From contig NZ_KB893722.1 of assembly GCF_000374165.1 (NCBI RefSeq), positions 1 to 64,000 on the forward strand: a stretch of DNA of 64,000 nt, given 5' to 3'. Position numbers and translations under genes: made by a program. The notes beneath the pieces are model-generated. The model was not told where the DNA came from, ran no database searches, and saw only the letters and a program-made list of their open reading frames with translations. The DNA comes from Parafrankia elaeagni. GTDB taxonomy: Bacteria > Actinomycetota > Actinomycetes > Frankiales > Frankiaceae. Below are positions 6,641 through 36,774 of this stretch, piece after piece (positions within the stretch are counted from its first letter, which is position 1; every line of letters begins with the position of its first letter).

Positions 6641-8601
<1,961 letters not shown>

Positions 8602-10102: not shown

Positions 10103-10274
10103 CCGGTTCCTTCCGCCGACCGGCCCGAGCCCCGGCGGACGCGGGCTGTCCGCCGGGGCCGGAGAGCGGCGGACGCCGCCCCACTGCCCAGGGACACGTA
10201 CGGAACGTCCCGACCGGTTCACCGTCCGCGTCCCGGGGTCATCCGGCGTGGTCGCCGGGGTCTGCGGCGCGTGC

Positions 10275-13200
10275 TCAGAAGCGGGCGGGTGACGCGGCGG
10301 TTGGCGGCGGCTGCACGTTCTGCTGCGGGAGCAGGTTCAACGCGCGCAGGGTCAGGTAGGTGCCCAGGGCTCGTTCAAACCCTCGTTCGATGAACGAAAT
10401 GATGATGTCGGAGAGCCCACCTCGGTGGAAGACCCGCCCGGAGCCGGCCGAGTGCAGCAGGGTCCGCGCCAGGCCGAACGCGAGGGCCACTCCGACGGCC
10501 CCGGCGCCGCCCCAGGCGCCGGCACGTGCCGCTCTGGCGCCGGAGAGCGGGATGAAGTCCTTGGGCAGGCCGAACGCGGCGGCATTCACCGTCGTGGCGA
10601 CGAAGGCGGCGACGAATCCCATGAGAAGGGTCGTCTGGAGGTAGTCGTAGCCGATCGTCCGCCACCGGGGCGGGTTCTCCGTGCCGGCCCACTCGTTGTC
10701 CCAGTGCTTGTCCTGGTTGTACGGGTTGCGGTTGTAGTCCTTCCCGCCGTCGACATTGGCGAGGCCGTCCTTGAAGCCCTTGAGCCCACCGCCCTGCCAG
10801 TCGTGGTAGGCGCTGTTCGCGGTCTTCAGGAAGCTGCCGATCGCCGCCCCGACCAGCGCTCGCAGGTAGTCGGGCTCGGTGAGCTTTCCCCGGTTGAACA
10901 TGGCGGCCACCATCACCTGCGCGGCGAAGTCGATGACGAGTTCCTGGGCGAAGTCCAGCGACGCCTTCTGCGCGATCTTCCGGACGGAGCCGACGAACTC
11001 GCCGACGAGCCCGTCGACCGCCTTGTACTGGAGCCGGTTCGTCTCCCGCCACATGCGGTTCTTGCCGCGGAGCTCGCTCATCCGGCCGCGGTACTCGAAC
11101 TCGCGGCCGACCAGGGTGAAGTTCGAGTGCTGGATGGACCAGCGGTTCAGCGGGCTGCGTTCCCACACGGTTCCGGACAGGGAGCGGTAACGCAGCAGCC
11201 GGCCGTCGACGTCGGTCTCCCGCCACTGCTTGTGGAAACTCTCGGACTCGCGGAAGACCCCGTCGCCCAGGTCCCTGCGCTGACGGAAGACGGCTCCGTA
11301 GTCGAACTCCTTCCAGGTGCCCCAGCCGACCGGCCGGTCCGGCGGACGCGGCGGGTCGTACTGACGCACGCGGCCGTGGGCAAGCTCGCGCAGGATGTTC
11401 CCGTCCCCGTCCCGGTCCTCCCAGCGTTGCGGGCGGACGCCTCGCGGCACGGTGGGCAGCCACTGTGCGTCCGGATGCAGCCAGAAGCGCCGGGCAGCGG
11501 AGCCCGGTACCGGAGAGCCCTCGGTGTCGCGGATCTCGGAGTGCCACGTCCCGTCGGACATCCGCTGCGCCGCGAGAGAACGGCCCTTGTCCAGCGACCG
11601 GAAGTCACGGATCCGCTCGACCGACCCGTCGTCCCCGGTCCGCAGATCGTGGAAGGAGTCGTCCCAGGCACCGGTCCAACGCTCGTTGCGCCCGCTGATC
11701 CGCGTGCCGCTCCCGCCGATGCTGTCGGTCCAGGACCACTCGCCGGTCTGTGGATCGCCGTGGGCCGAGACCTCGATCATGCCCGGCTGCACCGGGTTCG
11801 GCGCGGCGGGTGCCCACAGATCCGCGCGGCCGACGATCTGCCCCATGGTGTTGCGGGTGACGATCCTGATCACCCGCGGGTCGTACGGTTGCTCCGGTTC
11901 CGGCCGCGCATGGGGACGGTGCACGGTGATGACGTTCCCCTGCCGGTCGGCCCACCGGACAATCCTGAAGCCCCGCGGGACATATATCCTGTTCTCCCCG
12001 ATGTCGGAAACCGTGTCGACTATCCTGTTCTCCCCGATGTCGGAAACCGTGTCGACTATCCTGTTCTCCCCGATGTCGGAAACCGTGTCGACCCAGCGTT
12101 TCCCATCCGCGGCAAAGGTCCGCCGACCGGACCGGACCATCAATTTTTCCTTGTCCAGCTCGCGCCAGTCGAGGGTGCGCGCCCCCGGATTCGGTTCAGC
12201 GCCTTCGAGTGCGGCCCATCCACGGTCCGCCGCTCGGCCGATCTCGACGGTGTTGCCGTTTTCCAGCCTGATCATGCCGCGAACGAACAGGCCGCCACGG
12301 GTGAAGTCGGAGAAGGCACCGTCCGGGGTCACTGTTCGCACCCCGGTAGACACCTCGACACCATCGGCACCGGTCTCGGTCCATTTGAAGACCTGGAAGC
12401 GCGAGTCTCCCATAATCCATCCAGGATTGGGGAAGTCAACCGCTCCGAGGGAGCTCTCGAACAGCCAGCTGAACGGCCACAACCCGAACAGCCGCGCCGC
12501 TGTCCTGTCAAAAAAACCGGGAATGCTCTCCGGGGTTTTCCACAGCACGTCCGGGGGGCGTTGCTCGGCCCACCGCCTGGTCTTCAGCCGGTGCCCGTCC
12601 TCGATAACCTCGAGGCTGCCGACGTCCTTGAGCTGGGGCGAGAACTTCTGGTAGTTCTCGTCGAGGCGGTAGCCGCCGGACTCCTCGTCCAGGACGATCC
12701 TGTTCTCCTGGTAGTGCAGCGCCCTGGAGAGCAAGTTGAGTGCCGAGCTGTACCGGTGCGGCACCAGCCGGTCGCCGTCCGGGGTGACGAGGACGTCCTC
12801 CCAGTTCCGGTTCCACGTCTTCTCACGGACCCCTTCGTGCGTGAGAGTGCCGTGCCGGTTGAACCGGTACCAGCGCCAGGACTCGTCCGCGAGACGATCG
12901 GCGCGGATCAGGCCGCCGTCCGCTGTCTGCCGGTACTCCCGCACCTTGCCGAAGAGGCCCTGTTCGTCCCACCACAGCCTGCCCTCGGCCAGGTCGGAGT
13001 AGACCCGCGCACCTTCGCGAGCATGCCTGCCGAGGAGGCCGCCACCGTGCCCGTCCCACTCGATCCAGTGCCGTCTCCCATCGGCCCGCTGGAAGGTCTC
13101 GACGGTCCTGACCGGGTAGGTCCGGCTGTTCAACGGCTCGCGCGAGTAGACCGCGGCGCCGGCAGCGCCGAAAAGCCGTAGCGTGCCGTCCCACTCGACC

Positions 13201-16200
13201 ACCACGATGCCCCTTCCGCCGTACCTCCGCAACGGTGCGTCCGGTGCCGCCGCGGGCGCGGCCTCAGGCTGCCCGCCCCCCGGGCCGGGGCCGACAGCCA
13301 CCCGGACCCACGTGTCCGCCTCGTAGTCGACGACATACGCGTCGCCGAGCGGGGCGGAGTCGCGGGGTCCACCATCGACGATTCGAATTGACTCGGACCA
13401 GAGATCACCGGCGTGATCGATGATCTGGAAGTCTCCCCGGTGACCGCTGAAGCCCGTATCGGTGATCCGGAAGCCGACGCCCGGCTCCCGGGACACCTGC
13501 ACGTTCGGGACTTCCTCCAGATTGCCCGCGATCCAGTGAGTCAGGATGAGAACGTCGTTGCCGTCGTCGTCCCTACGGACGAAGAGGCTCCTCCGGAGAT
13601 TTCTGCCGGCCAGGTCCAGCAGGAAGATGTTCTCCTCCTGGAGAACGCCGTCGGCGGTGAATCGGTGCAGGCTCCCGTCCGGGCTGGTCAGACTTAGACT
13701 TTCGCCGTCAGTGACCTGCATATCCCATCTACGGTCGGGGCCGCCGAGGTCGGTGTGAAAGCCTCCGCGGGTGACGTGGTCGACCACCAGGTACCCGAAG
13801 TCATCACCATGTGCGTCCTGCGTGCCGAGTCGTTCGGCGATAAGCGCTCCGGAGTCGTCGAAGTCGCGCCAGGACCGGTCCAGCGGATCGGTGATCCGGT
13901 GACCGCCCTCCAACCGCCGGTAGGCGAACTCTTCGACGATGCCGTCCCTGGTCAGGATGGCCGTGCTGGCCGGTAGGTCGATCTCCAGGAATCCGGCGGG
14001 GGCACCGCCGCGGGTGTCGACGTCGAGACGCAGTCCGATCAGATCACCGCCCACGTCGAACCGGCGCCATGATCCGTCCAGCCGATCGGTGATCTGGTGA
14101 CCCCCACCCTCCAACGGCCGGTAGGCGAACTCTTCGACGATGCCGTCCCTGGTCAGGATGGCCGTGCTGGCCGGTAGGTCGATCTCCAGGAATCCGGCGG
14201 GGGCACCGCCGCGGGTGTCGACGTCGAGACGCAGTCCGATCAGATCACCGCCCACGTCGAACCGGCGCCATGATCCGTCCAGCCGATCGGTGATCTGGTG
14301 ACCCCCACCCTCCAACGGCCGGTAGGCGAACTCCTCGACGATGCCGTCCGGCCGGGTGAGGGTCGCCGTCCCGGCGGACACGTCGATCTCCAGGGCACCG
14401 AGCCGCACACCGTGCGGCCCCCGCACGGGCAGGCCTTCCTCGGTCTGATCTCCGGCGGTGACCGGGCCGGCCGCGCCGGGCTCGCGGGTGTCCGTCGGCC
14501 GGGCGCCGCCGGGCAGGCGCGGGCGTTCCAGCAGAGACAGCCGCAGCGCATTCTGATCCGCTGCCCGCAGCGCCTCGGCATCGAGACCGAGCCGGTCGAG
14601 GCCGTCCTGCGCCTCCCGCAGCCGGGCCGCCGCACCGTCCAGATCGAGACCGGCCTGGAGCTGGGCGGGCGTGGCGGGCGCCTTGCCCCCGCCGGCACCG
14701 GTCGCGGACGTTCCTTCTCCCCGGTCGCCCCGCGAGTCGGGATGCAGCTGGTGGTAGCGCGCCTGCGCCAGGGAGAAGTCCCGCTCGGCCACCCGGTAGG
14801 CGAGCCAGGCCGCGTCCGCGGCGGCGCCCGCGTTCAGGCCGACGAACAGCCCGTCGTCGTCGATCAGTGACGGGACCGCGGCGCCGCTCTCCTCCGTCCC
14901 GTCCGGGCGGATGACCACGAGGTCGTCGCGCGGGGCGGGGAGCGGGCCGCGCCCGCCGCTCGCGCTGTTGTTCACCGGGGACGGTTCGACGCCGCGGCCG
15001 ACCTGGATCACCGGCGCGCCGAACTCTGTAGCGAGCCGGCGTACGTCGTCCTGGAAGACCGCGTACCGTCCCTCGTCGGCCGGTGGTTGCGACCACAGCA
15101 CCACCGTCGCGATCTCGTCCGGCCTCTCCGCCTCGGACCGCTCGACGACCTCCGCCGGATCGAACGGGCGGGTGCCGCCGTCGCCGAGCCCCACCCCGAG
15201 CCGCCCGTCGTCGAGCACGGCGAGTTCGAGGCCGAGCGCGGACGACTCCGGGGCGTAGGGGCGGAAGAACGCCTCGGGACGGCCTCCCCGCCGCCGCACC
15301 ACCTCGGCGGACGGTGCCCCGAGGCCGCCCGGCCCCGCGCGCAGCCACATCACCTCACCCGGCGGCCACAGCCGCCCGGCCGCGTCCGTGCCCAGGGGTG
15401 GCTGCCGTCCCTCGGGCCCGGCGACCAGCTCCCAGCGGCCGGCGTCCCCGAAGGCACCGCGCAGCGCCGGATGGTCGGAGAGATCCACCTCGGTGGTGCC
15501 CGGCTCCGGCGCGAACACGGACATGTCCCCGTCGGCGCTGCCCGCCTCCGCCCACGCCCGCGCCTCCAGGACCGGGTCCCACTCCAGCGAGGAGTCACCG
15601 AACAGGAACCGGCGGGGGATCACCGCGATCGGCTGCCGGTTCCAGCCGTGGGCGCGCAGGAAGGCGGGCATCCGCTCCGGCGGCAGCACGTGCGGCGGCC
15701 CGTCCGGCCGGTCGACGACGAACTCCACGCCACCGTGGTCGTCGCCCCGCACCAGCAGGCCACCGACCTCGAAGACGTCATCCCTCCGGCGGCCGTCGCC
15801 CGCCCACTCGGAGCGCATGCGGTCAGGCTGCCGGCGGTCGACGGCATACAGACCCGAGCCGGTGACGAGGACGTCGGCCGCGGACGGAGCCGGCGTGATG
15901 GCGTCCGCGTCTAGGTCCATGAGGTCCGAGATGTCCGGGGACTCATAGGCGGGCTCCGGAGACAGCGGGGACGGTGTCCCGGCCGCCGGCCACGGCCACG
16001 TCCCCGCGGAGACACCGTCCAGGACGTCTCCGTCGATGTCCATGGCGTCCGGCGAGGACTCCGCGGACAGCGAGGTCGGTGTTCCGGCCGGGCCGCCCGC
16101 CGGCCACGTCCCCGCGGAGATACCGCTCAGGATGTCGAAGGCCCGCGACACGGTCTCGTCCGTCTCGTCGGCGGGCGGCCGCGGTTCGCCGGGAAGCGGC

Positions 16201-19200
16201 GCGGGGAACGGGGTTCCCCGGGGCCAGTGACCGAGGCCGCGCGACGGCCACAGCGCGAGGTGGCGGCCGACCACCGACTCCGGTCCGGCGTCGTGGACGG
16301 CGACGGTCGGGTCGCCGAGGCGGCCACTCGCGCTGACACTGTCCGACCCCAGCCAGAGCAGATGCAGCCTGAGTGCGTCGGCGATCGCCGCCCGGTCCGC
16401 CGTCAGCCGGTCGACGCCGGTGATGTCGAGCCCCGCCGGGGCGCGAGGGCCATCCAGAAAGAACCGCACCGCCGCGGCCACCGGGCCCGGCGCCTGGACC
16501 AGCAGCCCGTAGAGGTCCGCGGGGGCGGACCCGGGATGCTGCAGTGCCGCGCTGTGCAGCACCGCCGTGACCAGACCGTCCCCGTCGTAGGGAACCCACT
16601 GCGGGACAGGCATCACCCGCGCAGGACCGACGGGCCACGCGTCGATGACGCCGCCCGGGCCGGGATAGCGCGGCGCTGCGGGGCCGGCCGCGACCGCCAG
16701 GTAGGTCGGGGGCGGCGTAACGGGCTGGTCCGGGTAGGTGAACACCAGCTCGGCGGCGGCCGGACGCTCGGCCGGTTCCCGGCCCGAGGGCCCCAGTGCG
16801 CTGCCCGGCGCGAAGCGGGTCGCGAGCGGGTCGGTGTGCCGGCGGACATGGGCGACGGGGCGCCGCCACCTGTTGGCCAGTTCGGCGACGTGCGCGGTGA
16901 ACACCGCGTGGGCGTCCGCGTCCGCGGGGGGTACCGACCACAGCACCACCTCCGTGATCGTCCCCCGGGCGCGGCGGTGGGCGGCCGTCACGATCTCGTC
17001 GAGCGGGGCCTCCACGACCGTTCCGTCGCCCAGCGTGACTCCAAGCCGGCCGCCGGCGCGAACAGGAAGATCGAGCGCGAACACTCCCGCGCCGCTCGGG
17101 TAGCCGAGATCGTCGCTGGTGTACCGCGTCCAGTGTCGCGCCGCCATCGCGCCGGTGGGCGCGGCGAGGCCGTTGTCCGCCATCCGCAGCCAGGCGGCCT
17201 CCCGGGGCGGCCTCAGTCCTCCGACCGGGTCCGTCACCAGCGGGACGGCGAGCCTCCCGGGCGCGAACACCACCTTCCATCGCCCGGGGGCCGACCCGCC
17301 GTCGCCGGTCTCCACCCGGAGGGTCAGGGAGTCGACCTCGTGCGGCGAGCCGCCGTCGGCGGCCGGCGCGAACACGAACGCACCGGCCGCCGCGCCCACC
17401 TCCGCCCAGGCGCGCAGCTCCAGGTTCCGGTCCCGCACCTGGGCGGACTGGCCGAGCGGAGTCACCGCGAGCGGCACCTCGTGGTCCCGCCAGCCGTGTC
17501 GGTACAGCAGATCCGGCATCCGGTCGGGGGGGATGGTCCGGGTCGTGCCGTCGAAGGCGCTCACCTCGAACGCGGGCCTGCCGCCCTGGTCGGTCCGGAC
17601 CCGCGCTCCCCGCACCTCGAACACATCGTCACGCCGGACCGGCTGCCGGTGGCCGGGAGCGAACAACCCGGGTGCCTGGGCAGCGAAGGTAGACGGGTCG
17701 GTGAAGGTGACCCGCCCGGGCTGTTCGATCACGGCGTCGCCCGGCCGGGGCCGCACCGCCCCCTGGGCGTCGGAGACCCACCTGCTCAGACCCAGATCCG
17801 CCAGCGGCCCGAGCGCGCTCCAGCGGCCCGGCCGACCGGCCCTGTCACGTGCCCGGACCTGCCCGTCGGAGAGGACCCCGCCGTCCCCGCCGACGGCGAC
17901 CTCGCTGCCCGCCGCGAGAACGATCACCTCGACCCCGAGCCCGCGGGCGAGATCCGCCACCGTGGACCGTGAACGGCCTGGTCCGTCCGGCGTCCAGATC
18001 CTGACGTCCTGGCCCGGCCGCCAGCCGTGCGCGGAGAGGAACGCCTCGAGGTCCCTCTGGTCGGCAGGCGGCCGGGCCGAGGCCTGGCCCGAACTCCAGT
18101 CGGCTGGACTCCTGTCGGCTGGACTCCTGTCCGCCGCGGGCCCGGCCTCCGGGCTCACGACGCCCAGACCCCCCTGGCTTCGCGGCAGAAGCACGTCGAA
18201 CAGCCCGGTGTCAACCGCGGCGAGCTGGTGGAACGCCGGCCGCCAGCGCAGGAACTCGGGCAGCGTCACGGACGCCAGACCGCTGTGCCATCGCACCGGC
18301 GCACCGCCCCGGGCCGACACGAGCGTGCCGTCGGGCGCAGGGGCCAGCCACCTCGGCGCGACGACGGCACCACGCGGGATCCCCGCCGACAGCCCACCCG
18401 CCTGAGCGCGCGGAGCCACCACCTCCCAGGTGACGCCGCTGTCCGAGACGACCCGGAGACGACCGTCCGTCATCTCCTGGCGGCCGTTCCTCGCCGGCAG
18501 CCAGATCTCGGTGCCGAGGTGCTCGGCGAAGGCCCGCGCCTGCGCGCGCAGCGCGTCCCACCGCGTCCCGGCCTCCGCAGGCGATCCGGGCTGAGGCGGC
18601 GCCCAGAGCTGGACCGGACCGCCCTGCCAGCCGGCCGCACGCAGCAGCTGCGCGAACGCGTCGTCCGACAGCGGGGCCGGGCCCGCGGCTTCGGCGGGAC
18701 CGGCTGCGGCCAGCTCCCCGCCGGCAAGGCGCGGCCAGAGCACAGTGGTCACATTCGGGACCGGGTCCAGCTGGCCGGCGATCTCGGCGAGCTCGCCGGC
18801 GAAGACCACGCCGTGCCCGGGCGGCAGGCCGGGCGCAGAAGGCAGGCCGGGAACGGAAGGCAGGCCGGCAGCGGGGCCGGGAGCGGGAGCCGGGCCGGGA
18901 ACGGAAGGCAGGCGCGGCGACGGGCCGGAGGCCCGCGGCAGGTAGGGATCCCGGGGCGCCTCGGTTCGCCCGGGTGCACTGTCGGGTTCCGGCAGGGCAG
19001 CCGTGGCCGGCTGGCCGCCGACGAAGACCGGGTCCCCGCGCAGCGCCAGCCGGACGTCCCGCAGCGCGTCGCGGGTCCACCGCAGCGCCTCGGCCTCCTC
19101 CGGCAGCAGCTCGGCCCGCGCGAACGGGAGCGACCGGACCAGCGCGGTCGTCTCCTCGACGAACCGCGCGACCCGCTCCTCGTAGCCACCCGCCCGCGGG

Positions 19201-25200: not shown

Positions 25201-28200
25201 GTAACGACGGTGCCCGCCGGTGGCGGGAGGCTCACCGGTGGTCTGACGACCTCCCAGAGTCGGCCGCCGGCGGGTCGGGACGCTCCCGCGCCGGGCGTCA
25301 CCCGCAGCCGGCCGTCGCCCGTGACGTCCTGGCGAGCTCCCCGGGCGGGGAACCAGATCTCCGTCCCGAGCTCCGCCGCCATGGGCCGCAGCTGGTTCGC
25401 CAGCGCCTCCCACCGCCGGGCCTCCGAAGGACGGCCCTGCGCAGGCGCCCACACCACGAGCGGCCCACCTCGCCAGCCCCTCGCTGCCACCCGCTCGGTC
25501 AGCTCCTGGGCCGTCGGCGCGCGCGGCCCGCCGTCCTCACCCGGCACAGCACCCGGCACAGCCAGCTCACCGCTGTCCAGCCGCGGCAGGAACACCCCGG
25601 TCACCCCCGCCGGCAGGCGCACCCGGTCGGCCACCGCCTCCAGGTCGGCAGCCGGTTCGTTCCGCGCCTGGGAGGAGGATCCGCCGGCGGGTTGCTCGTC
25701 GGGTCGCGTGCCGCCCGGCAGCCCGGGCACGCGTCCGGTCAGCAGCAGGTGGGCGGTGCGCTCGACCAGCTGGCTGATCGTCCGCTGGGAGCCGCCGGGG
25801 GCCACGGCCTGGCCTTCGATCTCCTCCCGGATCCGCGCGTCGCCGAAGCCGGTGAACAGGTCCGGGTCCCCGAAATGCCGGAAATGGTTGCGCACATCCT
25901 GCAGCACCCCACGCCAGTCGGCGTCCGACAGCGAGCGGAGCCGCTCAGGCAGCACGGACGGCCCCGCGGCCAGCGACGCAGGCGCCTCGGCCGGCGACGC
26001 GACCGAAGGCCGGTCGAGACCGCCGGGCGGGCCGCCGCGCCGGGGCAGTCCCAACGTGCCCTGCGCATCGCGCGGCAGGACAACCGTGGTCACGTCCGGC
26101 GACGCCGAGCCGGAACCGTCCGCCTCCGTGGGTGGGTTACCGGCGTCCGGCTGGGGCGTCTCCGGGGCAGGCGGAGGAGCATCGCGGGTGAACTCCGCGT
26201 AGGCCGGCGGGTCCTGCCCCAGGGCATCGGCCGACACGGCCGCCGACGAGGTCACCGCGGGTGCGGGTTCCGGTGCGGGTTCCGGTTCCGCGTACGCCGG
26301 CGGAGCCTGCCCCAGGACGTCGGCCGACCCCACCGGCAGCATGGTGATCAGGGTGAGGGTCTCCTCGGCGAAACGCCGTTTGCGCGTCGCGTACGTTCCT
26401 GCCAGGGCGCCAGGCGCGGCCGCCCATCCGGGGACGATCAGTTCCACCGGGGTGACGGCCGGGTCGAGGCCGTGTGCCGCCATCGCCGCGGCGATCAGCC
26501 GGGCGAGGGCGTGCGGCGAGGTCGGCCGCGGACCGGTGGCCGTCGCCAGCGTCAGCCGGCCGTCCTGGTCGCTCCCGACGAGCACCGGGTATCTCCCCGC
26601 CCCCACCGCCTGGCGGACCTGCTCGCTGGTGTCGGGCTCCCACGCGGTCCCCTGTGTCAGGTCCAGCCCGGCGCCGAGCCCCTCGGGCAGTGTCCGCGCC
26701 CGGATCGCGGGTGCCTCCCGCCAGGTGACGGACGCCGCGTGCGGCTCGGGGTCGCTCGTGGCGAACACCGGCTGCCCGAGCTCGGCGCCGAGCAGCGCCG
26801 GATAGCCGGGGTCGAACAGGGCGCTGCCGGCCGGGCGCGTCAGCCCGCCCACGGCCAGATGGACCGGGTCGATCGCACCCACACCCACACCCGCAGCCGC
26901 GCCCGCTGGCCGGTGGGCGGCGATCACGGCCGCGAGCTGCTCGGCCGGGATCCGGATCGGCAGGCCACCACGGTGCCCGGAGACGACTCCGAGACCGCCG
27001 TCGGCCACCACCAGGAACGCACCCGGCCGCCGCAGGGGCACCGTCTCCCGTTCGGAGGGTGGCCGCAGGTCAAGGCCGTAGACGCCGTCGCCGTCGGCGA
27101 GCGGCCGCACCGACAGCTCGGAGACCTGTGCCCCCCGCACATACCATTCCCAGGCACTCGTCTCCGCCGGCTCGAACGGATGTCCCGTCGGCACCAGCTG
27201 CCCGGTCGCGCTGTCCCGCGTGTACTCCCCCGGCCGCCGCACAGCCGATGGGAGGAGGTGGGGAAGCCACCGCGCCGCGACGAAATCCGCGAGAACCGGA
27301 TCGAACCGGGCGCCACGGCCGAGGAAGACCGGCTGCTCCTCGTAGCCCCGCGACATCCACAGGGCGAACGTGTCGAGGGTGTTCTCTTCCGCCGGCTCCG
27401 CCGACGCGACCAGCCGGACCGGCGTGGCAGGCGCACGCCGGGTCCGCAGCGGTCTCAGCACCTCGTCCGCGGTGAGCGGCACGAGCCGGTCCGGACGCCA
27501 CGACGGATATCCCCGCACGGTGTGCACGGCCACCAGCGGAAGACGGCCGGGCCCGGCGCGCATCGTCCGCATGACACTGTCCAGGTGGGAAGGCAGCGTG
27601 CTTTCGCCCTGGTCACGTGCCCCGAACAGCAGGAGCCCGTCCCCGTAGACCCCCAGCTCGGGGCCGAGGTCGCGCCGGCGGACGAGCGCACCACCCGGAC
27701 CGATCCTCACCACGAGCGGCGGGGGATCGTCCGCCGTGCGGTCGGGATAGGCGAAAGCGAGGCCTGCCCGGGGCCCGGGCAGCGGCCCCAGCCCCGGTGA
27801 CGAATCGCTGTCGTGGACCGGAGACATACCGGCACCCCGGATGAGGTGGATCACCGGTGTGTCGAACTCGGTGGCCAGGGCGCCGACGTCGTTCAGGAAC
27901 CTGCCGTACTCCGCCGCGCCCGCGGGCGGCTGCGCCCAGAGCACGACCAGCTCGACACCGCGCGACGCGAGGAGCCGAGCCGCGCCGGCGACCTCCGCCG
28001 GGTCGAACGTTCGCGCGTCTCCGTTCCCGAGCCCCACCCCCAGGCGCCCGTCCGCCAGCACCGGAAGCTCGACTCCGAGGACACCTCCCAGGTAGGGGCG
28101 GGAGTAGGGCGACAGACTGCCGCCCCGGGCACGGACCAGCTCCGGGGTCGGAGCGCCGAGGCCGGTCGGGTTCGTCGACACCCAGGCGACGGCGCCCGCC

Positions 28201-31200
28201 GGCCAGCGCCGGCCCGCCGCGTCGGTGACCGGCGGAACCGGACCACCCGCCGGACCACCCGCCGGGTCGGCCGCGAAGCGGGCGTCGAACCGGCGGGGAG
28301 CCGAGCTCCCGCCAGCGGCGGCCCGCGCACCGCGGGCCCGCGCCAACCCGCCCCGCGGGCCCCGCCCGGCCTGGTCCAGCTGCCCCCCCGAGCCCCGCCC
28401 GCCCAGGTCCAGCCGCCCGAGCGGGCCCGTCACCTGCCAGGAGCCCACGGTGCCGTCCGGGCCGACCGGCCGCGGCTCACCGCTCCACGCCACGCCGCCG
28501 TCCGCCTCGACCGCGACAGTGTCCTCGGCCGGTACGACGATCTCGATGTTCTCTGCGCGGGCGAGGCGGTCCAGGAGCGGCTGCCAGTCGCCGATCCCGT
28601 GCCGCGTCCAGATCCGCAGGTCCTGGCCTGGCCGGTAGCCCACCCCCCGCAGCACCCGCCGGACGGCCTCCACCGAATCCGGCCGCATCCCGCCGAAGGG
28701 ACCGTCGCCCGCGCTGTCGACGATCTCGAAGAAGCCGGTGCGCGCCTCGCCCGGGCGGGAGGGGTGGGACCGCAGGTCGAGGTACTCCGGCAGCGTCATC
28801 CACGCGGCACCGCCCTGCCAGCGGACCGGCCGGCGGCCGGCGGCCGGCGCCAACACGCCCTCGGCGGCCGACTCAAGCCAGACCGGTGGACGGACGGCCC
28901 CGCCGGGAACCGGGCCCGGCAACGCGTGTGCGCCGAGAACGCGCCACCCCCGGCCGGCGCTGACCCGCATGCTGCCCGAGGCGAACTGCTGGCCGCTGCC
29001 GTGCTCCGGCAGCCAGATCTCGGTGTTCAGCGCCTCCCCGAAGATCTGCATCTGGGCCGCCAGCAGTGGCCAGCCCTGGCCGGGCCCCGACACGGGCGGG
29101 GCCCAGAGCTGGACCGGGCCGCCCCGCCAGCCCGCCTCCGCCAGCAGCTCCCGGAACACCGCGACCGACAGTCGGTCGGGCGCCCCGTCGACGGTGCCGC
29201 GCCGGGGCAGGCCCAGCTCGCCGCGGGCGTTGCGCGGCAGCACGACCGTGACCACACCAGGCGGCGAGACAACGGTGCCGGCGACCACGGCCGACTCCGG
29301 CGCCCCGGGGGCATGGACGACCCCACGCCGCGGATCCGCCTCGACGGTGTACCTGCCCCGCCACGCGCCGGCCGGCCCGGCCCCGACCGATCCGCCCGCG
29401 ACGGCGCTCCCGCCGCCGGCCTCGCCCGCGCTGTCGGCCGTGGTCAGCCGGCCGGAGATCTGCCGGGGGTTCCGCGACGCCGGCCGCGCCGAGGCGCGGA
29501 CCTCGATCTCCACGACCTCCACCGGCAGACCGACCTGGCTCCAGCCACGGCCGAGGAACGACCGCAGCTGAGACCGGACCAGATCGGCCAGCTCCGTCGC
29601 CGCGCTGTCCGGACCGGACTGGAACCACCCGCCGCCCTGGGCGATCTCCAGGATCACCCGCACCGGAGAACGACCGTCACGGAGGCGCGCCACCACCTCG
29701 TGGTGGACCTGGTCGGCGAACCGACCCAGCAGCAGGAACTCCGGATCCCGTCCGCCGAACGACCGCCTGCCCTCCGGCACGACCATCGTGAACCTGACGG
29801 CGTCAAGCCCGCCACGCGAAACGGACGGACCGGTCCGCACTGCGGAGGACGGTTCGCCCGTCGGTTCGTTCTGCCCCTGCGTGGATGATCCACCGGCGGG
29901 TTGCTCGCCGGGCCGCGCCCCGCCCGGCAGCCCCGGGGGGCGCCCGGTCGCGAGCACCCAGGCGGTCCGCTCGACGAGATGCCGTTCCGTCCTCTTGGCG
30001 CCGCCCGGCGCCGCGACCTGGCGCTGGTACTCCGCCCGGATCTGGTCGTCGGTGAAGCGGCCGAACAGATCCGGGTCCCCGAAGTGGTTCCGCACCGACC
30101 TCACGAGGTTGATCCAGTAGGCAGCGGTCGTCGGCTCCCCGCGGCCCGGCGCGTCGCCGCGCAGCATCGCCGTCATCTCAGGGGCGAGATCCTCGGGTGG
30201 GCGCGGCTCCAGTACCTCACCCTCCCTGGGGGCCATCGCCAGGACAGCGGTCCCGTCAGGTTCCGCGGCGGACGCTCCCAACGACGCCGGTGCCTCGATC
30301 GCCGGCGTGGCCCACTGCCCGAGCGGCTGCGGGCCGCTGGCGGACGGGCCGCTGGGAGCCGACGCCGCGGGGAGCGACGCCGCAGGTAGCGATGTCACGG
30401 GAGGCAACGTCACGGGAGGGGACGTCACGGGAGGGGACGCCGCTGGAAGCGAGGCCTGAAGACCCGCCGCCTGGGGAAGTGCGGGTGCGGAGGCGGTGAG
30501 CGGAACAACCGGTGCCAGCACGGGCGGGACGGGCGGGACGGGCGGGGTCGGCGTGGGCTGGCCTGCCAGCGGCGACGGTGTGGGCGTGGCGGCGGATGCA
30601 TCCGGGATCACGCCGTCCGGGCCGGCCGACTCGTTGACCGCCAGACTGCCCGCCGGGTCGACGGTGCCCGGGTGTCCCGGATCCGGGCCGGCCGGATCAC
30701 CCGGGAGAACCAGCCCGTCCCCACCGGCGCCAGCCACCGTGCCGGTCGGGGTTGAAGGCTCGATGGCGGCCCGGCCCTCGGGTGATGGTGCCCATCCCGT
30801 ACCTGGGTCGGGTGGGTCCGGCGGGTCACTGGGCGGGCCGGAGGGCAGGTCGCCGGCGGGCGGACCGGAAAGGGTGTTCGGATCGGGGGGCGGCACGCCG
30901 GCTCCCGCGTCCGGGTCCCCGGACGGCGGAAGTGGGGCAGGCGAACCCGGGTTGTCCGGGACCGGCCCCGGGCTGCCGTCGCGCCCGGTGTCGGGAACCA
31001 CCGCGACGAGACCTGCCCCGTCGGGTGGGGACGCGTCGCCGCGGACGCCGCTTCCCGCCTCCGGCCCGCCGACGGCAGGCCGGTCACCATCCGGCAGGAC
31101 GGACGGATCACCCGTCCCGCCTTTCAGCTCCGCGTTCCCGCCCGTCCCGGCCGGGAGCACCGCGGGATCCGGAACCTCGTCGCCGAACAGGCCGGTCACG

Positions 31201-32432
31201 CTCCGCGCAGCGGGATCCGACGTCACCGACCGCCCGTCGGGCTCCCCGATACTCGACGCATTCGCATCCGACGGAATCAACCCGTTCGGATCTGGAACCC
31301 CCGCTCGCTCCGGGCCCGGGGCTGGACCCGAAGCTGTTCCCGCAGATGGACCCGCAGATGGACCCGGGTCCGGGCCCACGGCTGGGCCCGGACCCGGATT
31401 GACGCCCAGCCCCGTACCGACACCGACACCGGCGCCGAGGCCCGTGCCGACGCCCGTGCCGAGGCCCGTGCCGACGCCCAGGCCGGCTCCTCCCGCCGAT
31501 GTGGGGTCCGCGGTGTTCGGGTTGACGTTCGGTCCGCCGAGCAGACCGCGCCCGGCCCGACCAGCCCGGTTGCCGAGGAACTCCCCGGCGGCCTCGGCGA
31601 CGGCCGACCACACGGCGGACACGTTGACCTGCCACTTGCCGTCCACCAGGCCGGAACCGAGGAACTCGGCGCTGGTCTCCTGAATGATCGACCACAGGCT
31701 GGCGTTGGTCAGGCCGGCCGCGAAGTTGTCGACGCCGCCGGCTACCCCCACTTTCTTGAGAAAATCGTCGAACGCTGTGGTCGCCTTCGACATGAACGGC
31801 AGGCTGACGAGCGTGGTCGCCGTTCCGACCAGCGCATGCAGGGTCATGCGGCCGAGTTCCTTGGTGTCCACCCCCTTCCGCCTGCCATCCACGATCTGGT
31901 CGATCATGGCGATGAGGGAGGAACCCGGCATGAAGAGCATCTGCATCAGCAGAACGCGGAGCTCCACCCGCGACGCGAGAAAGATCAGGACAGTGCGGAG
32001 GTACCACCGGTAGTACTCCGCGAGGGCGATCGCGATTCCGATGCCGAAGAATCCCTCGGCCAGTGCCTCCAGGATCTGGGCCATCATGAAGGCGAACATC
32101 GTGATGCCCTGCGTGCGCATGTAGTCCATTTCCAGCGCCGTGCTGTCCAGCCCTTTCGCGCCGGACTTGAGCAGGAGCCCGCCCTGCGGCAGCAGATGCG
32201 GGGGGTCGATGACGAACCTGGAGGTCTGGTCCACGAACTTCCGCCCCGGGCTGCCGCCGACGGACGCCTGCACCGAGCGGACGAGCTCCCTCAGGTCCTG
32301 GGAGAGACCGTTGATGACCTGGTCACCGTAGGCATCGAGAATCGAGGCCAGCGCCCACATCATCCTCGTGTCGGCCTGGGGCAGCCGCATGCCGGTGAAC
32401 GCGAGCACCGCGTTGTCCAACGAATCGGCCAC
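10275..32432 (-). CDS. giant (7,385-residue) type VII secretion-associated modular protein
   Basis: One uninterrupted 22,158-base frame. The GTG start at 32432 follows a GAGGGAGGGG Shine-Dalgarno. Residues 1-290 are helical with a hydrophobic core (about 110-200) and resemble the CpnT-like/WXG100-like N-terminal domain of actinobacterial type VII toxins. Residues 300-740 are Gly/Pro-rich. Residues 750-5850 are built from re-used 60-150-residue modules with V-V-L-W-S-x-P-P-A-D, I-W-L-P-A or D-G-R-L-G-L cores that look like alternating strands and helices. Residues 5900-7000 are strand-rich with exact tandem repeats and W-R-x-F / W-R-E-T motifs. The last 350 residues are hydrophobic and end in a Pro-rich tail. 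No Cys-His nuclease, deaminase or NAD-glycohydrolase signature was seen at the C-terminus. It is the penultimate gene of the eccD operon. It is likely exported or surface-bound; its activity is unknown. Confidence 0.85.
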   Translation of the reverse strand: MADSLDNAVLAFTGMRLPQADTRMMWALASILDAYGDQVINGLSQDLRELVRSVQASVGGSPGRKFVDQTSRFVIDPPHLLPQGGLLLKSGAKGLDSTALEMDYMRTQGITMFAFMMAQILEALAEGFFGIGIAIALAEYYRWYLRTVLIFLASRVELRVLLMQMLFMPGSSLIAMIDQIVDGRRKGVDTKELGRMTLHALVGTATTLVSLPFMSKATTAFDDFLKKVGVAGGVDNFAAGLTNASLWSIIQETSAEFLGSGLVDGKWQVNVSAVWSAVAEAAGEFLGNRAGRAGRGLLGGPNVNPNTADPTSAGGAGLGVGTGLGTGVGTGLGAGVGVGTGLGVNPGPGPAVGPDPGPSAGPSAGTASGPAPGPERAGVPDPNGLIPSDANASSIGEPDGRSVTSDPAARSVTGLFGDEVPDPAVLPAGTGGNAELKGGTGDPSVLPDGDRPAVGGPEAGSGVRGDASPPDGAGLVAVVPDTGRDGSPGPVPDNPGSPAPLPPSGDPDAGAGVPPPDPNTLSGPPAGDLPSGPPSDPPDPPDPGTGWAPSPEGRAAIEPSTPTGTVAGAGGDGLVLPGDPAGPDPGHPGTVDPAGSLAVNESAGPDGVIPDASAATPTPSPLAGQPTPTPPVPPVPPVLAPVVPLTASAPALPQAAGLQASLPAASPPVTSPPVTLPPVTSLPAASLPAASAPSGPSASGPQPLGQWATPAIEAPASLGASAAEPDGTAVLAMAPREGEVLEPRPPEDLAPEMTAMLRGDAPGRGEPTTAAYWINLVRSVRNHFGDPDLFGRFTDDQIRAEYQRQVAAPGGAKRTERHLVERTAWVLATGRPPGLPGGARPGEQPAGGSSTQGQNEPTGEPSSAVRTGPSVSRGGLDAVRFTMVVPEGRRSFGGRDPEFLLLGRFADQVHHEVVARLRDGRSPVRVILEIAQGGGWFQSGPDSAATELADLVRSQLRSFLGRGWSQVGLPVEVVEIEVRASARPASRNPRQISGRLTTADSAGEAGGGSAVAGGSVGAGPAGAWRGRYTVEADPRRGVVHAPGAPESAVVAGTVVSPPGVVTVVLPRNARGELGLPRRGTVDGAPDRLSVAVFRELLAEAGWRGGPVQLWAPPVSGPGQGWPLLAAQMQIFGEALNTEIWLPEHGSGQQFASGSMRVSAGRGWRVLGAHALPGPVPGGAVRPPVWLESAAEGVLAPAAGRRPVRWQGGAAWMTLPEYLDLRSHPSRPGEARTGFFEIVDSAGDGPFGGMRPDSVEAVRRVLRGVGYRPGQDLRIWTRHGIGDWQPLLDRLARAENIEIVVPAEDTVAVEADGGVAWSGEPRPVGPDGTVGSWQVTGPLGRLDLGGRGSGGQLDQAGRGPRGGLARARGARAAAGGSSAPRRFDARFAADPAGGPAGGPVPPVTDAAGRRWPAGAVAWVSTNPTGLGAPTPELVRARGGSLSPYSRPYLGGVLGVELPVLADGRLGVGLGNGDARTFDPAEVAGAARLLASRGVELVVLWAQPPAGAAEYGRFLNDVGALATEFDTPVIHLIRGAGMSPVHDSDSSPGLGPLPGPRAGLAFAYPDRTADDPPPLVVRIGPGGALVRRRDLGPELGVYGDGLLLFGARDQGESTLPSHLDSVMRTMRAGPGRLPLVAVHTVRGYPSWRPDRLVPLTADEVLRPLRTRRAPATPVRLVASAEPAEENTLDTFALWMSRGYEEQPVFLGRGARFDPVLADFVAARWLPHLLPSAVRRPGEYTRDSATGQLVPTGHPFEPAETSAWEWYVRGAQVSELSVRPLADGDGVYGLDLRPPSERETVPLRRPGAFLVVADGGLGVVSGHRGGLPIRIPAEQLAAVIAAHRPAGAAAGVGVGAIDPVHLAVGGLTRPAGSALFDPGYPALLGAELGQPVFATSDPEPHAASVTWREAPAIRARTLPEGLGAGLDLTQGTAWEPDTSEQVRQAVGAGRYPVLVGSDQDGRLTLATATGPRPTSPHALARLIAAAMAAHGLDPAVTPVELIVPGWAAAPGALAGTYATRKRRFAEETLTLITMLPVGSADVLGQAPPAYAEPEPAPEPAPAVTSSAAVSADALGQDPPAYAEFTRDAPPPAPETPQPDAGNPPTEADGSGSASPDVTTVVLPRDAQGTLGLPRRGGPPGGLDRPSVASPAEAPASLAAGPSVLPERLRSLSDADWRGVLQDVRNHFRHFGDPDLFTGFGDARIREEIEGQAVAPGGSQRTISQLVERTAHLLLTGRVPGLPGGTRPDEQPAGGSSSQARNEPAADLEAVADRVRLPAGVTGVFLPRLDSGELAVPGAVPGEDGGPRAPTAQELTERVAARGWRGGPLVVWAPAQGRPSEARRWEALANQLRPMAAELGTEIWFPARGARQDVTGDGRLRVTPGAGASRPAGGRLWEVVRPPVSLPPPAGTVVTPHWLDENDDGALAVADQYRPVRWRGGVLETDLQSYLNLRPRLRRLAAADTGFFEVAPSVQGIFSRPPNAGTVQGFVGKFERILNGFGYQQGQDIRIHFDGDRIAEWRPLLTQFAERFSIEIVIPAAGSSVPFLRAGGGDAATPAGEVRAIARNGDGGDWTVLGPLAAQHSRWQPEGGVVRPRQQNTVAVLPSGMWGFSSAGYVRGVVELQRRGAPQPTFFEAGGLLTARAPDGRVEFRSDRLDGTAASFSPAQLAGQLRALPAWQHRPIVVIPRRFYGRTGRPPVWDRDTEVAAWREVSSILGVAVFLPEARADDVSLSGRPTVHLADGSPGTWEDVSPPRPRPPAPPLPPAAGPAPSTGPGQTSRNEGAAASAAPPTVPVLPPPAPSPASVAAGREFVDVAWPAGGIFAIPADEVPPDQFVEGFTEFLTWLGYRGGRDIRDIRILGNGHVLAPWRGHLTQYSRLTGVEILVPAVGSVATAGGPVFQGRVTAVGVQGGAGRWDALTAAGSSRWMSVDGASVLRPDSAFARFGWGTHAVDPRRYAAGVAGLLTRRQTQPEVYEMVGVRVRRTGAGSPQFVVDLLDGALSELSVDQMAERLRVGGSWQRRALAVTPRALSTAAFPGEAVDWPLERAAWRAVGAALGVPVFLPSTDTAAVDLRGVPTVTGPGGRPSRWETVHTVPGEPMVPLATDLAGRLWRSDRPAWLEAAGGGLAAPSARLVTGRGGLLTAFDPGHPAGAGAFSLELSVLPAGELAVGLGDGSERRADLEEVAARIREAARRSEIAREIEARRVRDFLDGAAETTERDAVAEVVEGEDLGTRDAVGTVVLWSRPPADESAYDVFRQDVQRLADVLGRPVMYLRRGAVPLMSDDGTGGPPRTAPARAEDLLVAYPAGASTESAARRGGRPPGYQIARDGQLVQRWDNPDLDPEGLGVGVYSYGSLLFGRYAGGQPPVTVDEWMATSLARDPSGLPLVGVHAVDGAPSWRPDRLVPLSAEQVVSWLRAARTEGRPATPVRLFAASGGEPAAAFLGLAARIAELNENQPVFVARGVLFDHDLGGFVASEWVLVRGPAGGRVGGPVGFVGDSLTRQLVPAGHPFELPGHDPSEWYAAGMSPAGLDVRELRDGTGEYGVDLTGGGETPPPRIPGEYVVAARASWDGVLGGWVGGRLATPSGGRLSTPVFVPPEQLAALVRARPAAAGLPVRLIAHPELVTEEGRRGLTYEERLAAELGGEVRTAGTVNDIQVSTLPGDGGINLAAAGAPDGATDDHRWAVLAAGGFPVIVGSLPDGRLGLEAGDVTVASTPHGIARQISLQLASRGVDPAATQPWLVVVGPEEFADHGPRSADYAVRLARFVEETDRWFRTMPPAQSRPAGQPASAQPASAQPASAQPAPAPGAPGPVGLRWGLPPGAGLVEDSVTGRAADDSSAFAELDLSTSYTDGVEIRDLRVAVLADGRGRYGIDLRTGDSEEERMPAPPRDGRWFVVLADGGPEGVVGYRPDEQGVFQQVPLAPELLARLVEQQWGDSDAIAIVLVVDPDGPPRPPYRGIEHASLVSDVLPLPVFTPVWARADDGSATASWRPAPRVLRRDLPASLTSSGGPGLDLAGADRWDASAAGRAQAVLAGGGFPVVVESYPDGRLGLTTSDGPRPATPYVVAWSIARGMTERARDPLATPPWLIVVRPSVPEGGTPPPAEYGRRLEWFVQEMHRDLVTIAGHWSAEGGPPALHPPEPAAVAPREADPAGWYTSGTRISDLRIWPLVDGEGLYGIDLTGGHAEVSPPRRPGQFTVLVEGGPAGAVGYRPAARPVALPAEQLAAMLDFLWAGSGETFGDVRLVLTRSDADGGPYHGVHYAVRVGAELPDVPVLATTLAAESTGGDGAWRVPEVLAGSAVRGGLNLASLVVDEATRRRIEAAAARFRLPVVVESHPDGRLGLVVLSDGAAVSLAATPHDVARQIVLALAADADRRHPGGQAARPGTALSGTWTVDVVTFPLVGFLPGDPRAGGYEERVARFVEETTALVRSLPFARAELLPEEAEALRWTRDALRDVRLALRGDPVFVGGQPATAALPEPDSAPGRTEAPRDPYLPRASGPSPRLPSVPGPAPAPGPAAGLPSVPGLPSAPGLPPGHGVVFAGELAEIAGQLDPVPNVTTVLWPRLAGGELAAAGPAEAAGPAPLSDDAFAQLLRAAGWQGGPVQLWAPPQPGSPAEAGTRWDALRAQARAFAEHLGTEIWLPARNGRQEMTDGRLRVVSDSGVTWEVVAPRAQAGGLSAGIPRGAVVAPRWLAPAPDGTLVSARGGAPVRWHSGLASVTLPEFLRWRPAFHQLAAVDTGLFDVLLPRSQGGLGVVSPEAGPAADRSPADRSPADWSSGQASARPPADQRDLEAFLSAHGWRPGQDVRIWTPDGPGRSRSTVADLARGLGVEVIVLAAGSEVAVGGDGGVLSDGQVRARDRAGRPGRWSALGPLADLGLSRWVSDAQGAVRPRPGDAVIEQPGRVTFTDPSTFAAQAPGLFAPGHRQPVRRDDVFEVRGARVRTDQGGRPAFEVSAFDGTTRTIPPDRMPDLLYRHGWRDHEVPLAVTPLGQSAQVRDRNLELRAWAEVGAAAGAFVFAPAADGGSPHEVDSLTLRVETGDGGSAPGRWKVVFAPGRLAVPLVTDPVGGLRPPREAAWLRMADNGLAAPTGAMAARHWTRYTSDDLGYPSGAGVFALDLPVRAGGRLGVTLGDGTVVEAPLDEIVTAAHRRARGTITEVVLWSVPPADADAHAVFTAHVAELANRWRRPVAHVRRHTDPLATRFAPGSALGPSGREPAERPAAAELVFTYPDQPVTPPPTYLAVAAGPAAPRYPGPGGVIDAWPVGPARVMPVPQWVPYDGDGLVTAVLHSAALQHPGSAPADLYGLLVQAPGPVAAAVRFFLDGPRAPAGLDITGVDRLTADRAAIADALRLHLLWLGSDSVSASGRLGDPTVAVHDAGPESVVGRHLALWPSRGLGHWPRGTPFPAPLPGEPRPPADETDETVSRAFDILSGISAGTWPAGGPAGTPTSLSAESSPDAMDIDGDVLDGVSAGTWPWPAAGTPSPLSPEPAYESPDISDLMDLDADAITPAPSAADVLVTGSGLYAVDRRQPDRMRSEWAGDGRRRDDVFEVGGLLVRGDDHGGVEFVVDRPDGPPHVLPPERMPAFLRAHGWNRQPIAVIPRRFLFGDSSLEWDPVLEARAWAEAGSADGDMSVFAPEPGTTEVDLSDHPALRGAFGDAGRWELVAGPEGRQPPLGTDAAGRLWPPGEVMWLRAGPGGLGAPSAEVVRRRGGRPEAFFRPYAPESSALGLELAVLDDGRLGVGLGDGGTRPFDPAEVVERSEAERPDEIATVVLWSQPPADEGRYAVFQDDVRRLATEFGAPVIQVGRGVEPSPVNNSASGGRGPLPAPRDDLVVIRPDGTEESGAAVPSLIDDDGLFVGLNAGAAADAAWLAYRVAERDFSLAQARYHQLHPDSRGDRGEGTSATGAGGGKAPATPAQLQAGLDLDGAAARLREAQDGLDRLGLDAEALRAADQNALRLSLLERPRLPGGARPTDTREPGAAGPVTAGDQTEEGLPVRGPHGVRLGALEIDVSAGTATLTRPDGIVEEFAYRPLEGGGHQITDRLDGSWRRFDVGGDLIGLRLDVDTRGGAPAGFLEIDLPASTAILTRDGIVEEFAYRPLEGGGHQITDRLDGSWRRFDVGGDLIGLRLDVDTRGGAPAGFLEIDLPASTAILTRDGIVEEFAYRRLEGGHRITDPLDRSWRDFDDSGALIAERLGTQDAHGDDFGYLVVDHVTRGGFHTDLGGPDRRWDMQVTDGESLSLTSPDGSLHRFTADGVLQEENIFLLDLAGRNLRRSLFVRRDDDGNDVLILTHWIAGNLEEVPNVQVSREPGVGFRITDTGFSGHRGDFQIIDHAGDLWSESIRIVDGGPRDSAPLGDAYVVDYEADTWVRVAVGPGPGGGQPEAAPAAAPDAPLRRYGGRGIVVVEWDGTLRLFGAAGAAVYSREPLNSRTYPVRTVETFQRADGRRHWIEWDGHGGGLLGRHAREGARVYSDLAEGRLWWDEQGLFGKVREYRQTADGGLIRADRLADESWRWYRFNRHGTLTHEGVREKTWNRNWEDVLVTPDGDRLVPHRYSSALNLLSRALHYQENRIVLDEESGGYRLDENYQKFSPQLKDVGSLEVIEDGHRLKTRRWAEQRPPDVLWKTPESIPGFFDRTAARLFGLWPFSWLFESSLGAVDFPNPGWIMGDSRFQVFKWTETGADGVEVSTGVRTVTPDGAFSDFTRGGLFVRGMIRLENGNTVEIGRAADRGWAALEGAEPNPGARTLDWRELDKEKLMVRSGRRTFAADGKRWVDTVSDIGENRIVDTVSDIGENRIVDTVSDIGENRIYVPRGFRIVRWADRQGNVITVHRPHARPEPEQPYDPRVIRIVTRNTMGQIVGRADLWAPAAPNPVQPGMIEVSAHGDPQTGEWSWTDSIGGSGTRISGRNERWTGAWDDSFHDLRTGDDGSVERIRDFRSLDKGRSLAAQRMSDGTWHSEIRDTEGSPVPGSAARRFWLHPDAQWLPTVPRGVRPQRWEDRDGDGNILRELAHGRVRQYDPPRPPDRPVGWGTWKEFDYGAVFRQRRDLGDGVFRESESFHKQWRETDVDGRLLRYRSLSGTVWERSPLNRWSIQHSNFTLVGREFEYRGRMSELRGKNRMWRETNRLQYKAVDGLVGEFVGSVRKIAQKASLDFAQELVIDFAAQVMVAAMFNRGKLTEPDYLRALVGAAIGSFLKTANSAYHDWQGGGLKGFKDGLANVDGGKDYNRNPYNQDKHWDNEWAGTENPPRWRTIGYDYLQTTLLMGFVAAFVATTVNAAAFGLPKDFIPLSGARAARAGAWGGAGAVGVALAFGLARTLLHSAGSGRVFHRGGLSDIIISFIERGFERALGTYLTLRALNLLPQQNVQPPPTAASPARF
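11985..12092 (-). repeat. three exact tandem copies of a 36-bp unit inside the giant gene
   Basis: Copies at 11985-12020, 12021-12056 and 12057-12092 are identical. Each encodes 12 residues (V-D-T-V-S-D-I-G-E-N-R-I) at about residues 6780-6816 of the giant protein. Identity without silent changes points to very recent expansion by slippage. Confidence 0.95.
13921..14322 (-). repeat. perfect 201-bp tandem duplication inside the giant gene
   Basis: Bases 13921-14121 and 14122-14322 are identical over 201 positions (67 codons, reading frame kept). A third, diverged copy follows to the right from 14323. The protein repeat contains E-F-A-Y-R-P-L-E-G-G-G-H and W-R-R-F-D. It lies at about residues 6037-6170. 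Confidence 0.95.
21024..21075 (-). repeat. 15-bp tandem repeat coding A-Q-P-A-S in the giant gene
   Basis: Three nearly exact copies of a GGGCTGCGCGGATGC-type unit encode A-Q-P-A-S repeats in a Pro-rich linker between modules of the giant protein. Confidence 0.8.
25655..25905 (-). repeat. second copy of an internal segmental duplication in the giant gene
   Basis: This segment encodes V-R-N-H-F ... D-P-D-L-F ... A-P-G-G ... L-V-E-R-T-A ... L-P-G-G-x-R-P ... E-Q-P-A-G-G-S-S. The same series of motifs occurs at 29880-30100, 4.2 kb away, so the two blocks arose by duplication of a module series. Confidence 0.8.
29880..30100 (-). repeat. first copy of the internal segmental duplication in the giant gene
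   Basis: Partner of the 25655-25905 segment, with the same residue pattern starting V-R-N-H-F-G-D-P-D-L-F and ending in the linker E-Q-P-A-G-G-S-S. Each copy introduces a new run of modules in the giant protein. Confidence 0.8.
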
Positions 32433-36471: not shown

Positions 36472-36774
36472 TCAGATGGAGATGCCGTCGCCGAAGGCGA
36501 CAGCTCCCTTGAGGTCACCGAGCAGGTAGTTGTCGTGGATCCAGCCCAGGCGTTTCGTGCCGTCGGCGATCGAGGCGCTCATCTGCGCCTGGCCCTCGTT
36601 CCAGAGGCTCTGCGCCTGCAGGTAGACCTCCGGTGCCTTTCCTTCGTTGGCGGTCAGGAAGGTGGCGATCTTCACCTCCAGGTCGTCCAGCGAGGCCATC
36701 AGCAGGGTGTGGACCTTGGCGAGCTCGTCGGCGGTGTCGAGAGCACCGTTCGGGTTGAAGTTGTACGTGGCCAT
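36472..36774 (-). CDS. WXG100-family protein with YxxxD export signal
   Basis: A 100-residue two-helix protein. Helix one covers about residues 11-42, the turn carries a W58-N-E variant of the W-x-G motif, and helix two ends with Y83-L-L-G-D87, an exact Y-x-x-x-D/E type VII export signal. It probably forms an antiparallel heterodimer with the product of the gene immediately upstream, whose stop is only 7 bases away. The ATG at 36774 gives the normal family length of about 100 residues; longer in-frame extensions upstream overlap the partner gene and are not credible. It is the likely EsxB-like, signal-bearing partner. Confidence 0.8.
   Translation of the reverse strand: MATYNFNPNGALDTADELAKVHTLLMASLDDLEVKIATFLTANEGKAPEVYLQAQSLWNEGQAQMSASIADGTKRLGWIHDNYLLGDLKGAVAFGDGISI

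Follow-up and report, generated by a model that had tools for sequence, protein, structure and literature searches.

The first 64,000 nucleotides of contig NZ_KB893722.1 of Parafrankia elaeagni (assembly GCF_000374165.1), here called the window, contain a type VII (ESX) secretion operon whose last gene encodes a single protein of 7385 amino acids, here called the giant. The explanation that we favour, with a probability of roughly 0.55, is that the giant serves the adjacent type VII system as a cargo and is built like a polymorphic-toxin carrier. In 2012 Zhang et al. described giant actinobacterial proteins of polymorphic-toxin-like build whose caspase arrays are inactive in part (PMC3482391), and the giant is a variant of these proteins rather than a new class. 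A reading of the same DNA made from the letters alone (the sequence-only reading) had suggested a new class of surface fibre or toxin carrier; of this proposal the toxin carrier is the nearer by analogy, though this member showed no catalytic domain, and the claim of novelty is not retained. The search for similar giants, which that reading recommended, did find homologous frames at the same locus elsewhere (see below).

The 22-kb "unknown" can now be read as head, partner gene, cassette arrays and tail, separable for cloning. The parts of the giant are the following:

31533..32432, minus strand: N-terminal export-type domain (head), residues 1-300, a predicted distant WXG100_2 relative, with hydrophobic segments at 120-138 and 148-166
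30153..31532, minus strand: Gly/Pro/Ala-rich linker, residues ~301-760, as judged from the sequence
29853..30149, minus strand: repeat H, copy 1, residues 762-860, 56% identical to copy 2
26328..29276, minus strand: module array 1 (A-B-D-E-F), residues 1053-2035
25644..25949, minus strand: repeat H, copy 2, residues 2162-2263
19116..25625, minus strand: module array 2 (A-B-C / B-C-D-E-F-F-F), residues 2270-4439, the D copy split by an insertion
16836..18773, minus strand: module array 3 (A-B-C-D), residues 4554-5199
14991..15785, minus strand: module array 4 (C-D), residues 5550-5814
13788..14411, minus strand: 67-residue repeat, about three copies, residues 6008-6215; at the DNA level a 201-bp repeat at 13866-14349, 2.4 copies, 96% alike
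10275..13862, minus strand: C-terminal module (tail), residues 6191-7385, with a Trp-rich region, a conserved block and hydrophobic stretches; the segment above the hydropathy cut-off is 7269-7287

The giant frame and its place in the operon

The frame (10275..32432, minus strand) starts with GTG, directly preceded by the purine-rich ribosome site GGAGGGAGGGG, and runs for 22.2 kb with no internal stop, as had been claimed. The start is backed by homologous heads, which begin at the equivalent position, and the G+C content of third codon positions (GC3) stays between 0.83 and 0.92 along the gene. The base composition of the window favours long frames, another of which encodes 1468 residues. 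Order-2 Markov simulations of the window, 20 in all, produced no frame above 953 codons, so that the length of the giant does not follow from base composition. At the equivalent locus other genomes have homologous frames, with lengths of 4100, 4328, 5402 and 7094 codons and, for one that leaves its contig, at least 6225 codons; homologous giants occur in Frankiaceae and Micromonospora. These observations confirm that the 22-kb frame is a genuine gene.

The minus-strand operon has the order EccD, EccB, WXG100-like protein, ~100-residue protein, 161-residue protein, 826-residue protein, YbaB-like protein, 113-residue protein, giant. Membership in the type VII operon was thus predicted correctly, but the giant does not lie between ESX genes: those on its strand are all upstream in transcription, and it is followed by fragments of a gene for a ~400-residue protein and then by Hsp70-like and AraC/DJ-1 genes on the opposite strand. 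Of the ESX machinery expected alongside a WXG100_2 substrate, EccB, EccD and an EccC-type ATPase are present, and the WXG100-like gene scores just below the Pfam cut-off.

Head, module arrays and cysteine content

The sequence-only reading had likened the N-terminus to that of CpnT, with which we take the Pfam family WXG100_2 (PF25547) to be linked. This family gave no direct match to the giant up to E 1, and the likeness emerges through other giants. The window head profile and one made from five giant heads were compared by hhalign, which gave a probability of 98.8% (E 9.4e-17, 180 columns); the second set had been picked from matches of the first, and the two of its members that were scanned (genomes G377 and G125; G and L numbers are our own handles for genomes and loci) match PF25547. 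By this profile evidence the head is predicted to be a distant WXG100_2 (CpnT-like) domain. In G377 and G125 the heads are followed by ADP-ribosyltransferase, RelA/SpoT (under its cut-off) and Gln-amidase domains; NCBIfam yielded nothing informative for the G125 giant.

The first 300 residues had matches in 14 of 59 genomes, the own genome included, with 39-48% identity where full length. A six-sequence head profile extended this to 22 of 394 genomes of the class (own included), in 7 of 137 genera. The frames that carry 21 of its 27 matches range from 2157 to 19630 codons. Of the other six matches, five are cut by contig ends, as their coordinates show, and one falls in a draft genome where the frame is broken. 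No match to the head was found among phage and plasmid sequences up to E 0.01, and none to its profile among PDB sequences up to E 1. The giant, if exported, had been ranked among the largest type VII cargoes. For scale, such heads also occur on frames of 8442 and 19630 codons, the latter only at E 8e-4. This longest frame (G150, L057-L060), a marginal match, has only two cysteines. In G241 (L064-L066) two neighbouring giant frames of 3638 and 4756 codons share identical first 50 residues, differ at their ends and have no cysteine; they are probable tandem paralogues.

A homologue of the 113-residue gene (36-53% identity) lies directly 5' of the giant in all 12 other distinct genomes checked, Micromonospora rubida among them (14 matches in the head regions searched, two of which are duplicate records of one genome). 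Like CpnT, the giant combines a head of the WXG100_2 kind, the link being the one assumed above, with a small gene just upstream. Mycobacterial cpnT is preceded by esxF-esxE, and CpnT needs the small EsxE-EsxF pair (PMC7810871, in the part available), which makes this pair the nearest model for the 113-residue partner. Unlike CpnT, the giant is directly preceded by one partner, not two. According to the same part of that paper, CpnT ends in the TNT toxin, which has an immunity factor, IFT; no immunity gene was recognised at the giant locus, though no search aimed at IFT was made.

Repeat families were delineated by comparing overlapping pieces of the giant with the giant itself by BLAST, and module copies were counted by profiles. 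Within residues 1053-5814 this yielded 21 copies of six types (three of A, two of E and four each of B, C, D and F), in the order A-B-D-E-F, A-B-C, B-C-D-E-F-F-F, A-B-C-D, C-D. Four relatives (G010, G025, G005, G001) have the complete order A-B-C-D-E-F and two others (G006, G035) a part of it; profile search detected no A-F modules in G002 and G032. Taking these orders together, the giant seems to have grown by duplication and loss of parts of one cassette of ~1000 residues that is common to relatives. Modules A, B and C are mutually related (97-99.9% profile probability) and A is linked to D (92%, 95% in a repeat). The same comparison gave no link for C-D (18%, 3% in the repeat), B-D (0.6%, 4%) or for E or F with the others (at most 27%). 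Pfam and NCBIfam searches of the whole giant in three overlapping pieces returned nothing useful, and the module profiles had no match among PDB sequences up to E 1.

Four of the module types were matched by a family which we labelled LLSC in this analysis (the name "lonely Cys domain" was found in no paper of the literature collection searched), with profile probabilities of 79% (A), 87% (C), 87% (D) and 89% (F). As controls, 30 column shuffles per module stayed at or below 3.8% and reversed profiles at or below 0.3%. When the comparison of D was repeated without the joined seed, the value was again 87%, and shuffles gave at most 0.9%. We take the LLSC family to be caspase-like. The region of array 3 (residues 4538-5225, modules A-D) was modelled with a predicted local distance difference test score (pLDDT) of 76.6. 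In VIA-align its rows 2-11 were cysteine-protease domains of MARTX and clostridial toxins, with weak Z (row 11 being a whole toxin aligned over residues 578-783), and CHAT caspases stood in rows 12, 16, 19 and 34. The model thus weakly resembles toxin cysteine-protease domains, and the matches fall mainly on module A. Caspase-like (C80, clan CD) protease domains of large toxins and CHAT are the best fold matches of the modules, chiefly of A, from which the modules differ in lacking the catalytic cysteine, in the weak Z and in the many copies per chain.

These results suggest that a caspase-like protease fold, in diverged form, probably underlies several of the module types. Some caution attaches to this assignment and, through it, to the favoured explanation: the caspase label of LLSC is backed by nothing firmer than the weak fold match; the LLSC profile, applied directly to the window, gave a best domain E of 2.3e-4 in a one-sequence search, which is weak; and the same profile met three unrelated weak matches and no caspase in the PDB. 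One LLSC unit matched only DUF6538 and Ntox37 in Pfam, both under cut-off. With the probable caspase-like kinship of the modules, and with a tail found in many large proteins (see below), the earlier statement that no recognised toxin or enzyme domain follows the head has to be revised.

The giant contains no cysteine in 7385 residues, where about 46 would be expected from 12 other genes of the window (46 in 7461 residues); the catalytic cysteine of a clan CD peptidase is thus absent. The other giants counted have 0 to 6 cysteines each. In G002 and G006 the sole cysteine after the start lies within the motif G-D-G-x-C-[FL]-F, followed by a C-terminal N-H-Y motif. This domain of ~235 residues had nine PDB matches in a profile search (best E 8.7e-5, 21 positions): three are OTU proteins by name, two are unrelated, and the remaining four, viral polymerase entries, we take to be OTU domains. 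The OTU assignment draws on the motif together with this profile search; Pfam made no OTU call in the pieces of the relatives' giants that were scanned (for G010 the OTU-like piece only).

When the seven cysteine-bearing copies were themselves used to build a profile, it detected 25 OTU-like copies at E <= 1e-10 in seven relatives' giants; of these 25 copies, only the seven that had gone into the profile keep the cysteine (G005 2/14, G001 0/5, G010 2/2, G002 1/1, G006 1/1, G035 1/1, G025 0/1). All but one of the 18 cysteine-free copies belong to two genomes, G001 and G005. With this profile no OTU-like copy was found in the window giant (E <1) or in G032. The G005 locus (L022/L023/L069), which carries 14 of the copies, consists of two frames of 2157 and 9743 codons.

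The giants of Zhang et al. (PMC3482391) combine, in the part available, several recognised toxin domains. The window giant is unlike them in having no recognised toxin domain and no cysteine, and in its defined A-F cassette and shared C-terminal module. The available parts of a survey of huge proteins (PMC11573180) do not contain the word Frankia, and those of PMC12691689 and PMC12419801 hold nothing on this family. No paper on this Frankiaceae giant family was found by title or abstract in the limited literature collection searched.

The C-terminal module

The tail (residues ~6191-7385) is a mobile module that recurs in 14 of the 59 genomes, and a profile of its last 600 residues in 19 of the 394 genomes of the class, the own genome included both times. 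These 19 comprise 14 Frankiaceae (family f1), four members of genus g24, presumably Streptomyces, and one of family f17, presumably Micromonosporaceae. Nine sequences from eight genomes are 40-53% identical to the window over ~1200 residues, and the ten-row alignment displays a Trp-rich region, a strongly conserved charged block (consensus KDGLANVDGGKDYNRNPYNHDKHWDNEW) and then hydrophobic stretches. With the last 600 residues as query, the plasmid matches were four records only (three of Streptomyces clavuligerus, one of Embleya; 26-29% identity). The last 1541 residues of the giant had no Pfam match up to E 1, TNT included, for which Pfam presumably holds a model; nor did the tail match NCBIfam, or the PDB up to E 1. 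Its structure model, from a two-row alignment, was unusable (pLDDT 33.7).

Classical polymorphic toxins join a variable C-terminal toxin domain to a shared N-terminus and have an immunity gene directly downstream. The ends of the giants vary among relatives, being OTU-like in G002 and G006 and the shared module in the window, G031 (L033) and G032; the latter two also share the head of the window giant, fused to this tail. The end of the window giant has no recognised toxin, and the downstream place is that of a ~400-residue gene (see below). Elsewhere it mostly ends proteins of ~2,500-3,900 residues that begin D-W-S-x-L-x-L-x-x-D-P-T-P-G-D-P (our label, 'DPTPGDP'-headed proteins; Frankiaceae and other actinomycetes). 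These share the C-terminal module with the giant but have a different head, and BLAST matches (>70 bits) cover the tail region only. In G001 and G250 the D-P-T-P-G-D-P start and the tail are in separate frames. Pfam had no match in the two such proteins scanned (L081, L112).

Some further details of this region were recorded. An EccC-like ATPase, a gene of ~300-450 codons, a DPTPGDP-headed tail protein and a beta-helix/AAA-like gene form, by eye, a recurring cluster (L112-L116, L081-L094), whose ATPase and beta-helix/AAA genes have counterparts in the window. At 11985-12092 of the window a 36-bp unit is present in three perfect in-frame copies (12-residue repeat VDTVSDIGENRI), with none in the nine aligned relatives, and is probably a recent expansion. 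The copy number of the 201-bp repeat may differ between assemblies.

Alternative readings and neighbouring genes

In the favoured reading of the giant as a type VII cargo, the WXG100_2-type head would pair with the 113-residue partner and be delivered to EccC, by analogy with ESX systems. The chain would be exported through the neighbouring system, and the hydrophobic segments near both ends may hold it at the envelope. The arrays probably do not work as cysteine proteases and would instead provide a long spacer or modules for binding. The C-terminal module, common to other type VII-linked proteins, might be the constant working end and might act on or insert into membrane or wall; on our best reading any activity of the giant would lie there.

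That the giant is an active toxin, its tail an unrecognised enzyme or pore former directed against rivals or a host and its arrays a delivery stalk, is possible, though we regard it as unlikely. The strong conservation of the tail with its charged block and hydrophobic stretches would fit, as would the ADP-ribosyltransferase, RelA/SpoT (under its cut-off) and Gln-amidase domains behind heads of the same kind in G377 and G125. On the other hand, the tail has no Pfam, NCBIfam or PDB match, its structure model is unusable, no immunity gene was recognised, and the tail is the constant rather than the variable end of many proteins.

We are doubtful that the giant is purely structural, a fibre or adhesin of the cell surface in which the modules would form a long stalk and toxicity would play no part. 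This reading would account for 21 repeated units, hydrophobic segments near both ends, and a chain in which neither cysteine nor a catalytic domain was found. But giants with cysteine-bearing OTU-like domains (G006, G010, G005) have this head and these modules as well, a sign of effectors.

Still more improbable is a decaying effector that has lost an ancestral active protease domain. A gene for a ~400-residue protein lies downstream of the giant or module carrier in all seven relatives with that end covered (G002, G005, G006, G010, G031, G032 and the tail-bearing frame of G025) and is only fragmentary at this place in the window; likewise, G002, G005, G006, G010 and G035 keep at least one cysteine-bearing OTU-like domain where the window giant has no cysteine and no OTU match. 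Against decay, 22 kb have stayed open with coding GC3 throughout, the tail is complete, a full-length copy of the ~400-residue gene survives at 44417-45625, and other giants (both G241 frames) are cysteine-free too. Two copies of this gene family are also present in G010.

An assembly artefact joining separate genes, conceivable in a draft of 135 contigs with perfect 36-bp and near-perfect 201-bp repeats open to mis-assembly, is already largely refuted, as the 7094-codon homologue sits in a single-contig genome, the module order is common to relatives, and a single frame of G032 contains both this head and this tail.

A more speculative extension, to which we give little weight, is a non-enzymatic class of type VII effectors: cysteine proteases turned into exported pseudo-protease arrays that act by binding and are anchored by the conserved C-terminal module of one branch of these systems. 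Peptides or ubiquitin-like proteins from a rival or a host plant might, for example, be their targets, with the arrays serving as substrate traps or decoys. Two protease folds may be on the same path in these giants, the caspase-like and the OTU-like arrays. If this were true, the novelty would be an entire effector without cysteine, and if the arrays bind targets, a large class of type VII effectors escapes searches for enzymes. The giant in any case suggests how huge type VII cargoes may arise in actinomycetes other than mycobacteria, through cassette duplication with cysteine excluded, and it opens a tractable question, the role of exported dead proteases. Many Frankia are plant symbionts, and a host-directed role of the giant would be of interest in this regard.

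The genes around the giant are the following:

9469..10183, minus strand: fragments of a second copy of the ~400-residue gene, the middle gone, directly downstream of the giant
32519..32860, minus strand: 113-residue partner, directly upstream of the giant
32857..33309, minus strand: YbaB/EbfC-family protein
33355..35835, minus strand: 826-residue protein, no Pfam match
35838..36323, minus strand: 161-residue protein, no Pfam match
36472..36774, minus strand: 100-residue putative ESAT-6-like protein, so called from size and position
36785..37141, minus strand: WXG100-like protein (Pfam WXG100 E 1.9e-5, 25.3 bits, below the cut-off of 27.3)
37219..38691, minus strand: EccB
38693..40168, minus strand: EccD
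40213..44175, plus strand: EccC-type FtsK/SpoIIIE ATPase, divergent from the operon
44417..45625, plus strand: full-length copy of the ~400-residue gene beside EccC, no stop in the matched stretch, no Pfam match

At the loci of relatives, genes for proteins of 851-1045 residues have, by eye, an N-terminus similar to that of the 826-residue protein. Beyond EccC lie a beta-helix/AAA protein (49335-52877) and a DUF4132 protein (52903-56466), which possibly belong to the same system.
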